Shown here: one piece after another, positions 34,959-37,614 of the stretch
Position numbering within the stretch: position 1 is the stretch's first letter
Layout of the letters: every line of letters begins with the position of its first letter
NCBI RefSeq assembly: GCF_029960785.1
Contig: NZ_JASBQE010000001.1
Span: 1-64,000, forward strand
DNA: 64,000 nt
From: Polyangium sp. 15x6
GTDB lineage: Bacteria; Myxococcota_A; Polyangia; Polyangiales; Polyangiaceae
Direction of reading: 5' to 3'
Position numbers and translations under genes: made by a program
Notes under the pieces: model-generated
The model's database searches: none
Seen by the model: only the letters and a program-made list of their open reading frames with translations
Told to the model about the DNA's origin: nothing

Positions 34959-35054
34959 GATGCGGACCCCATGGCAGGAGGAGACGACCGAAAGCGGGCC
35001 GACAGTCTAGGACGCGCGGGCCGCGCGAGGCAACCCCTTCGATCACCCTTCGGC

Positions 35055-35083
35055 TTGACGTTCCCGGTAAAACCCTGAATAGT
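35055..35083 (+). promoter_or_regulatory. Sigma-70-type promoter of the selenoprotein gene
   Basis: TTGACG (35055-35060) and AATAGT (35078-35083) are 17 bases apart. The expected start of transcription is near 35090, directly before the SD AGGAGG (35092-35097), so the leader would be very short. Confidence 0.6.
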
Positions 35084-35105
35084 GCTGGCGAAGGAGGAAA
35101 CTGGC

Positions 35106-35465
35106 ATGAACGAGCGAGCCGACTGGTATTATCACCGCAAGGGGTGAACCTCGTGCACTCGAGCGCGGGAGTTTCTCGCGCAAGAAAATGTGACGATCGG
35201 GGAAATGGCCGACGCGGGCAAGCTCAAGCTCGGCGGAGAGGGCGCGCTCGCGCTCGCCCGGCAGGCCGAGCGGATCGTCGCGGTGAAAGGAAAGAAGCGC
35301 GTCACGCTCGACATGCGCGCGCGCCCGCCCGACGCGGACGTGCTCGAGGCCATGCTCGGGCCGACGGGCGGGCTCCGGGCCCCGACGATGCGGGTAGGAC
35401 AAACGCTCGTGGTGGGCTTCGATCCCGAGGTTTACGCCGAGGTCCTCGGGCGCGGGAAGGGGTGA
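35106..35465 (+). CDS. ArsC-like selenoprotein candidate (UxxC), TGA 35145-35147 read as selenocysteine
   Basis: From ATG 35106 the frame reads MNERADWYYHRKG, then TGA, then TSCTRAREFLAQENV and continues to TGA 35463-35465: 119 residues including one Sec. The SD AGGAGG lies 8 bases before the ATG, a promoter lies upstream, and a SECIS-like hairpin follows the TGA. With Sec at residue 14 and Cys at 17 the motif is WYYHRKGUTSCTRAREFL, the CxxC active-site position of ArsC/Spx/YffB thioredoxin-fold proteins with U replacing the first Cys; the remainder (GKKRVTLDM, LGPTGGLRAPTMRVGQTLVV, then GFDPEVYAEVL) fits the C-terminal half of that family. Families of ArsC-like (seleno)proteins with Sec or Cys here are known. 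Without recoding only a 91-residue GTG-start piece (35190) would be called, lacking the active site. It should act as a thiol/selenol redox protein. The alternative is a Cys-to-stop mutation in a dying gene. Confidence 0.8.
35163..35181 (+). promoter_or_regulatory. Bacterial SECIS-like hairpin after the in-frame TGA
   Basis: GCGC (35163-35166) pairs with GCGC (35178-35181), with inner GAG/CTC (35169-35171, 35175-35177) closing a TTT loop after a GG bulge. Taken as a 4-bp stem with an 11-base apical loop, the loop begins with GG and lies 19 bases after the TGA, within the spacing and loop rules described for bacterial SECIS elements. Energy and context were not computed. Confidence 0.55.
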
Positions 35466-35475
35466 ACGAGAAGGC

Positions 35476-35832
35476 TCAATCCGCCAGATTGCCCATGCCC
35501 ATGCCGAGAGCAGGTGCTTCTGGACCTCGGTGTGCGCCTTGTTCAGCCCCTCGGCTGCCTGTCCCGAGAACGGATCGACGACCACGCGCGTGGGGCGGCT
35601 GCCCGCGGGCGACTCGACGAGCGTGAGGACCGCGTCCGCCACGAGCTGCGGGCTCGGAACGTTGTCGCCCGAGAACATCTGCTCGAAGCTCTTGCCCATC
35701 ATCTCCACCGCGTTCGCGAACGGCCCGTAGCCCTGGGCGCGCTCCTGCTCGGCGCCCACGGCGAGCTTCTGGCCAAATTCCGTGGGGCTCTTCCCCGAGG
35801 GAAGGGGCCCGTCACCGAGGAAAAATCGAACC
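35476..35832 (-). pseudogene. 5'-truncated, frameshifted SDR-family oxidoreductase remnant
   Basis: About 115 codons match only the C-terminal third of an SDR: GKSPTEFGQKLAVGAEQER, YGPFANAV, SPQLVADAVLTLVESPAGSR, PTRVVVDPFSGQAAEGLNKA, QKHLLSA. The Rossmann fold and the YxxxK site are absent; similarity begins right at the stop codon of the FG-GAP gene (35833). Near the end the frame shifts: after LLSA the in-frame reading becomes WAWAIWRIE, while a +1 reading gives MGMGNLAD and a stop (TGA, 35478-35476), the natural family-like ending. So it has lost its front and one base at the tail. It ends 10 bases from the stop of the selenoprotein gene. Confidence 0.75.
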
Positions 35833-37614
35833 TCAATCTCCGTTCGGCTGACCCATGCGGAGCGGGCCGCCGCGCGCGGTCGACCAGAGCAGGCAATTCT
35901 CGGCCGAACCCGGCACCGTGAACACGTCGAGCCCGTGCTCGAAGGTCTGCACGAAGATCTCGACCTGCCCATCACCGTCGAGGTCGCCGACCGCGGGCGC
36001 CGCGGGCGCGCCATTGCCATTTCCATTTTGCTCGCCCGTATTGTGAAGCGGCACGTCGTGGAGCAACGTCCCATCCGCGGCGAGGATCACGAGATACCCC
36101 GAGTCGAGCACGTTCGGATCGCCGTACGTGGCGAAGATGAGCTCGGGCGAGCCGTCCTGGTTCAGGTCCGCGACGGTCACCTCGGTCGCGAACATGATCG
36201 ACTTACCGTGCGTGTAGTTGAATCGCCAGATCTGCTTCGCGTCCGCGCCGAACGCATACACGAACCCGTCGTTGAACGGCGCCACGATCTCGGGTTTGTC
36301 GTCGCCCTGGATGTTCACCGTCGTCGCCGTCGGGATGCCGCCGGGCGGATAATAACCCTCCACCTGGATGGGTTTTTCCCCGCGCGGGAGCGTCTCCCAG
36401 CCGGGCTTGCGCATCGCCGAGCGGCTCCCGTCGCCGTGCGCGCCTTCGAGCACCATGATCGCATAGGCCTGCGTTTCGTACGGCTCGTTTTTCTCGATGT
36501 TCGGCAGCCCCAGCACCTCGTTTTTCCCGTCCCCGTCGAGGTCGACCACGTTCGGCGGCGACGCGGTCCACTGGAGCCACTCGGCGAACGACGGGTGCGG
36601 CCACTCGCCCGTGTGCAGGTTGTAATGGTCCGCCTCGACCTTCGGATCCGCCCAGCGGATGAACTGGCCCCACGTGAGGCGCTGCCCCTCGAATTCGTTC
36701 GCGCGGTTCGTGAAGAACGGCGCGGCGTCGATCGCCACGCCGTCGTGGTCGAAGGCCTGGATGTGGTGGTTGTCGTAGGTCGCGAGCACCTCGAGCTCCG
36801 GGTCGTCGTCGATGTTCCCGACCGCCACGTTGAGCCCGTAGCAGCCATACCCGGAGTGCCCCATCCCATTCCGATCTGCGTCGTTCCCGGCGCCCGTGAG
36901 GTTGTTGTATCGAGGCCACGCCGGAAATCCGAGCCCCGCCGGTTGATGGAGCGAGCCGTCGGCGCGGAACACGAACACCTGCGCCCCGCCGTCCTCGGTG
37001 CTCGCGGTTTGCGTCGTGGTCACGACGATCTCGAGCACGCCGTCGCCGTCGAGATCGCCGGCGGCCATACCGCGCACCTCGGGCGCGTCGTTCGCGGTCG
37101 TCGTGCTCGCGGGGAACCCTGCCTTCGGCACGAGCGCCTTGTCCTTCCACTCGTACGCCCAGACCTCGTGATCGCTGCCGTACACGATGTCCACGAGCCC
37201 GTCGCCTTCGAGGTCCGCGACGACGTGCGGGGCGTACACGCGCCCCTCGCCGCCCTCGGCCTTCGCGAGCACGTTGCCCTCCGCGTCGTGGACGAAGACC
37301 GAATAATAGGCCGCGATGAGCTCGCGTTTTCCGTCGCCGTCGAGGTCGCGCACGACGGGCGAGGCGAACCAGCTCGTCTCGCCGGGGAGCGTCATCTTGT
37401 ATTCGGGCGCCATCACCTCGCCCTTGCTTTCGCCCTTCTCGCACGTCGTGTTGCGCGTCCCGCCGGTCGTGGAGCCCCCGGTCCGGCCCCCGGGGCCGCC
37501 CTCGCTCTCGCCGCAGGAGGCGACCGCGAGGGAGAGGCCCGAGGCGAGGAGCAAGGAGAGGAGGGGTTTGCCCCGCCGGGACATCGAGTGATGGAATGAG
37601 CGCATGTGGGTCAT
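35833..37614 (-). CDS. FG-GAP/VCBS-repeat lipoprotein
   Basis: 593 residues. Signal with lipobox LAVASC, then a Gly/Thr-rich spacer, then a beta-propeller of FG-GAP (integrin-alpha-like) repeats with calcium loops: VRDLDGDGKRELIAAYY, VADLEGDGLVDIVYGSD, AGDLDGDGVLEIVVTTT, VVDLDGDGKNEVLGLPN, VADLNQDGSPELIFATY, VGDLDGDGQVEIFVQTF. This predicts an outer-surface, Ca-stabilised propeller that binds a ligand or other cells. ATG 37614 has GAGGA six bases upstream; ATG 37605 is possible. An inserted ~110-residue section between repeats (NDADRNGMGHSGYGCYG onward) contains extra Cys and Trp. It is divergent from the next gene. Confidence 0.88.
   Translation of the reverse strand: MTHMRSFHHSMSRRGKPLLSLLLASGLSLAVASCGESEGGPGGRTGGSTTGGTRNTTCEKGESKGEVMAPEYKMTLPGETSWFASPVVRDLDGDGKRELIAAYYSVFVHDAEGNVLAKAEGGEGRVYAPHVVADLEGDGLVDIVYGSDHEVWAYEWKDKALVPKAGFPASTTTANDAPEVRGMAAGDLDGDGVLEIVVTTTQTASTEDGGAQVFVFRADGSLHQPAGLGFPAWPRYNNLTGAGNDADRNGMGHSGYGCYGLNVAVGNIDDDPELEVLATYDNHHIQAFDHDGVAIDAAPFFTNRANEFEGQRLTWGQFIRWADPKVEADHYNLHTGEWPHPSFAEWLQWTASPPNVVDLDGDGKNEVLGLPNIEKNEPYETQAYAIMVLEGAHGDGSRSAMRKPGWETLPRGEKPIQVEGYYPPGGIPTATTVNIQGDDKPEIVAPFNDGFVYAFGADAKQIWRFNYTHGKSIMFATEVTVADLNQDGSPELIFATYGDPNVLDSGYLVILAADGTLLHDVPLHNTGEQNGNGNGAPAAPAVGDLDGDGQVEIFVQTFEHGLDVFTVPGSAENCLLWSTARGGPLRMGQPNGD

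Follow-up and report, generated by a model that had tools for sequence, protein, structure and literature searches.

The stretch of DNA between positions 35,106 and 35,462 of the window (the whole 64,000-nucleotide sequence analysed here) is very probably a real selenoprotein gene. We put the probability at about 0.96. The recoded reading frame, its conservation in homologues, a SECIS hairpin and the genomic machinery for selenocysteine (Sec) can all be read directly from the sequence (Table 1). The preliminary description of this DNA had located the Shine-Dalgarno motif, the ATG start at 35106, the in-frame TGA and the open frame that continues to a final stop codon, TGA 35463-35465, and all of these positions proved to be right. 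The redox motif of the recoded 119-residue protein reads R-K-G-U14-T-S-C17. The source genome (13.4 Mb) belongs to the Polyangium group, and the closest relatives of the protein come from Polyangium fumosum and other Polyangium spp.

Table 1. Features of the predicted selenoprotein locus, with positions in the window.
Feature	Position	Strand	Basis
TTGACG, part of promoter-like block TTGACGTTCCSGGTAAAACC	35055..35060	+	Kept in Polyangium loci; function inferred
Shine-Dalgarno AGGAGG	35092..35097	+	Sequence; kept in 6/6 Polyangium loci
Predicted selenoprotein CDS, 119 codons, ArsC/Spx-like UxxC protein (NF041106)	35106..35462	+	Profile score, homologues, model
Predicted Sec-encoding TGA, codon 14	35145..35147	+	TGA in 63 other non-redundant homologues, TGC in one
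TGC codon 17, resolving Cys of U-x-x-C	35154..35156	+	Invariant, 51/51 aligned members
Bacterial SECIS hairpin GCGCGGG-AGTTT-CTCGCGC, 7 bp, loop 35170-35174	35163..35181	+	Conservation, compensatory pairs

The recoded protein matches the NCBIfam family NF041106 with 123.9 bits (E 3.8e-36; curated cut-off 85 bits) over profile positions 2-107 of 107. It shares with this family (ArsC_rel_Se_1, 'ArsC family (seleno)protein') the full-length match, the UxxC motif and a Sec TGA at the same codon. Homologues were found in GTDB contigs and in the genomes of relatives, and belong to Polyangiaceae, other Myxococcota, Gammaproteobacteria, Planctomycetota and others; a search of plasmids gave no match. 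The suggestion that the TGA is read as Sec, creating a U-x-x-C motif, is supported by these homologues, as the aligned codon is TGA in 64/65 non-redundant loci and TGC, encoding Cys, in the other (L090). Similarly, a scan of the phylum recovered 77 genomes with a match above the cut-off, and every such match contains one TGA except the Cys form of G442. The redox site of the family, with Sec or Cys at position 14 and Cys at position 17, is present in 51/51 aligned members, among which R11, U14, C17, G62, G85, G88, R91-A92-P93 and G104 are invariant. A sequencing error, which the preliminary description had itself raised as a possibility, is ruled out because the TGA recurs across dozens of independent assemblies.

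The sole Cys form that we found (L090, on contig C28 of G442) has the motif HRRSCETC; its genome retains a tRNA-Sec and its hairpin is lost. We also noticed a divergent branch within the same order (L091, L092, L093 and L094, from G326, G408, G253 and G331, respectively), with the motif FYGRxUTGCxPVREFLAR and a conserved TGA; the SECIS was examined in L091-L093. Since L091 reaches 69 bits against the NF041106 cut-off of 85, this branch may be missed by annotation. In addition, weak NF041106 matches of 22-31 bits, each with one TGA, occur at G444:C984, G446:C487, G416:C48, G395:C508, G143:C8, G392:C55 and G178:C82, and may belong to a further ArsC/Spx-like family of selenoproteins in this phylum.

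The AlphaFold2 model built from the family alignment has a mean pLDDT of 91.3 and a pTM of 0.84, and among solved structures it comes closest to Spx, to YffB (1rw1) and to ArsC-related and glutaredoxin proteins. With Foldseek, 1rw1 was retrieved at E 2e-4; VIA-align superposed 3gkx and 3ihq over 88 residues with Z 9.0 and an rmsd of 2.6-2.8. Fold matches at Z 8 to 9 are only moderate, but the same proteins are found independently by profile search, in which Spx/YffB/ArsC relatives appear with E down to 5e-10 and U14 and C17 fall on Cys10 and Cys13 of Spx. Alignments with homologues, including the Cys-containing Spx and YffB, begin around residue 4-8 and run through the Sec position; the opposite case envisaged in the preliminary description, homology starting only at about residue 30, was not encountered. 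The protein is similar in fold and length to the YffB/ArsC-related proteins (1rw1, 2m46, 3gkx), from which it differs by its Sec and its UxxC motif. We predict that its activity is probably thiol/selenol-disulfide oxidoreduction.

It is unlikely that the selenoprotein is instead an Spx-like redox-sensing transcription regulator, in which the UxxC motif would be a switch contacting RNA polymerase, rather than an enzyme. Spx (1z3e, 6ghb, 3gfk) is indeed similar in fold and among the best profile and fold matches, with U14/C17 lying on its Cys10/Cys13 switch. However, the Polyangium protein has Sec for Cys and is shorter, with a shorter C-terminus, and Spx residues 51-54 correspond to a gap in the profile alignment. 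These residues belong to the alpha-CTD contact loop and include Gly52, which Spx requires for contact with the alpha-CTD of RNA polymerase. Moreover, Spx-type regulators are otherwise, to our knowledge, Cys proteins of Firmicutes.

We consider it improbable, too, that the selenoprotein is a true arsenate reductase. Pfam ArsC is its best Pfam match, although below the gathering score (glutaredoxin is also sub-threshold), the fold matches putative arsenate reductases with Z 8.2 and 7.7, and R773-type ArsC (1i9d) belongs to the same ArsC superfamily, the Polyangium Sec occupying the position of its catalytic Cys12. Nevertheless, ArsC works with a single Cys and an external glutaredoxin and not with a UxxC motif, whereas the Polyangium protein possesses the second Cys of the motif. 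A weak alignment (probability 7.6%), which places only Arg94 among the anion-binding arginines Arg60, Arg94 and Arg107 of R773 ArsC, sets P93 of the RAP motif on P95 and thereby the invariant A92 in the place of Arg94. Furthermore, no conserved arsenic operon adjoins the gene: clustering of neighbouring genes at 30 loci revealed no conserved operon and no neighbour hinting at a substrate, the clusters being mostly antisense ORFs in GC-rich DNA or genus-level synteny. Arsenate reduction thus appears, on weak evidence, less likely than oxidoreduction. The genome also encodes an ArsC-like paralogue of its own.

The frame appears to be under coding constraint on both sides of the TGA. In a comparison of six Polyangium loci, codons 1-13 have a pN of 0.029 and a pS of 0.128 (small counts), and codons 15-119 a pN of 0.052 and a pS of 0.173; by this measure the segment before the TGA is constrained as coding, as is the one after it, with few counts available for the former. 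The SECIS hairpin begins 15 bases past the TGA, and its AGUUU loop 22 nt past the UGA. At least 6/7 positions pair at this offset in 60/64 homologues, against at most 16 homologues at any other offset within the 239 nt that follow the TGA, so that there is a single common stem. When arms were swapped between homologues, 0/2000 trials matched the observed pairing. Compensatory changes are seen at pair 4 (CG or TA, with one exception), pair 5 (GC, CG or AT) and pair 7 (GC, AT or GT), and all 60 paired homologues have G as the second base of the loop. The isolated hairpin has an energy of -11.7 kcal/mol and is mildly more stable than shuffled sequences (z -1.4 and -1.7); as energy alone is only modestly unusual, the case for the hairpin rests on conservation. 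The Cys homologue L090 has no stem at this position. According to the published model, a bSECIS has a stem of 4-16 bp, a loop of 3-9 nt with a G within its first two positions, a loop located 16-37 nt past the UGA and an MFE of at most -7.5 kcal/mol (PMC13188914, Fig. 2), all of which apply to the hairpin at 35163-35181. Its stem differs in sequence from the commoner GCGTCCA/TGGACGC type of the NF041106 family, with a similar fold.

These data refute the reading of the locus as a nonsense-mutated pseudogene or a sequencing error, in which translation would really end at the TGA and the ORF behind it would be a relic or start at GTG 35190: the frame is indeed broken under table 11, but a relic would not hold one stop at one codon across many phyla, and the recurrence of the TGA in nearly all non-redundant homologues, purifying selection on either side of it and a conserved RNA hairpin just past it make this explanation exceedingly improbable. 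We also rejected a start at GTG 35190 as an unrelated ORF; these 91 codons, correctly described beforehand as having no active site, do not include the conserved R11-x-x-U14-x-x-C17.

The genome possesses the complete set of Sec genes whose search had been proposed at the outset (selA, selB, selC and selD). A tRNA-Sec is located on C66 (71.3 bits; anticodon TCA according to ARAGORN), selB (289.5 bits, cut-off 242) lies on the opposite strand at a distance of about 60 bp from it, and selA (490 bits) and selD (392 bits) are also present. Among 108 family-level genomes, selB was detected above the cut-off in 11/11 holders of the gene vs 24/97 non-holders (Fisher p 1.2e-6, a value not corrected for shared ancestry, six of the holders being from one genus). 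By hand count, 68/77 gene holders of the phylum have a tRNA-Sec at E 1e-10 or better; the nine holders without a clear match are all drafts, at most 90% complete. The same genome contains a second selenoprotein gene of the SelW/Rdx type (L113, G000:C247:7047-7250; MNVVIKYCHVU...), with an in-frame TGA, a CxxU motif and, past the TGA, a hairpin that has the same AGUUU loop as the one described above. Searches of the genome for formate dehydrogenase and Uxx-star selenoproteins yielded nothing above the cut-off, nor did any match carry an internal TGA.

Insertion of Sec in vivo, the steps of catalysis and the substrate are inferred here. SelB carrying Sec-tRNA(Sec) would bind the hairpin just past UGA codon 14, leading to the insertion of Sec, and the product would be a 119-residue protein with a thioredoxin fold, a member of the ArsC/Spx/YffB superfamily. 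The Sec14 selenolate would most likely attack an oxidized substrate (a disulfide or similar), after which Cys17 would resolve the intermediate, forming a U14-C17 selenenylsulfide that a cellular thiol system could reset.

Upstream of the gene, we could identify a promoter-like match, TTGACG-17-AATAGT, at 35055-35083 (1 vs a shuffle mean of 0.0). TTGACG and GGTAAAACC recur upstream of the gene in Polyangium loci; AATAGT does not. Likewise, the block CTTGACGTTCCSGGTAAAACC (35050-35078) recurs in these loci and a consensus -10 does not; the block may be a promoter for an alternative sigma factor or a site for a regulator. On the minus strand, inspection by eye revealed at 35466-35835 a stretch within an ORF that resembles short-chain dehydrogenases over their C-terminal part, with no evident start, which is possibly a gene remnant.

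An 'Arsenate reductase-like protein, NF041106, UxxC' is listed among prokaryotic selenoprotein families in a 2026 review (PMC13188914, Table 1), and in a list from 2022 it is entered as COG1393 UxxC (PMC9312934). The same family probably appears as 'Arsenate reductase 2, UxxC' in the GOS study (PMC2398784). The earlier statement that ArsC-family (seleno)proteins are known therefore stands, whereas the accompanying statement that standard gene calling would miss such a gene applies only to callers that do not handle Sec. The Polyangium gene is thus a further member of the already catalogued NF041106 family and not new in kind. In the literature searched, no paper mentioned all three of selenoprotein, selenocysteine and myxobacteria.

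On the strength of the genomic evidence, we regard as confirmed a Sec-encoding gene that is cut short or overlooked when genes are called with table 11. The same evidence indicates that the Polyangium genome decodes Sec in two or more small redox proteins, among them one of the NF041106 family and one of the SelW/Rdx type. The NF041106 family is almost wholly fixed for Sec, with 1 Cys form among 65 non-redundant loci. This is unusual, as nearly all selenoproteins possess Cys homologues (PMC13188914), and suggests that the function of the family relies on the chemistry of selenium. One could further imagine, although we hold it to be unlikely, that the family senses redox state in a selenium-dependent way, as an Spx/ArsC-like switch with Sec, and is not a housekeeping oxidoreductase. 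If true, such a Sec sensor would tie gene control to selenium/oxidant status in Myxococcota and marine proteobacteria.
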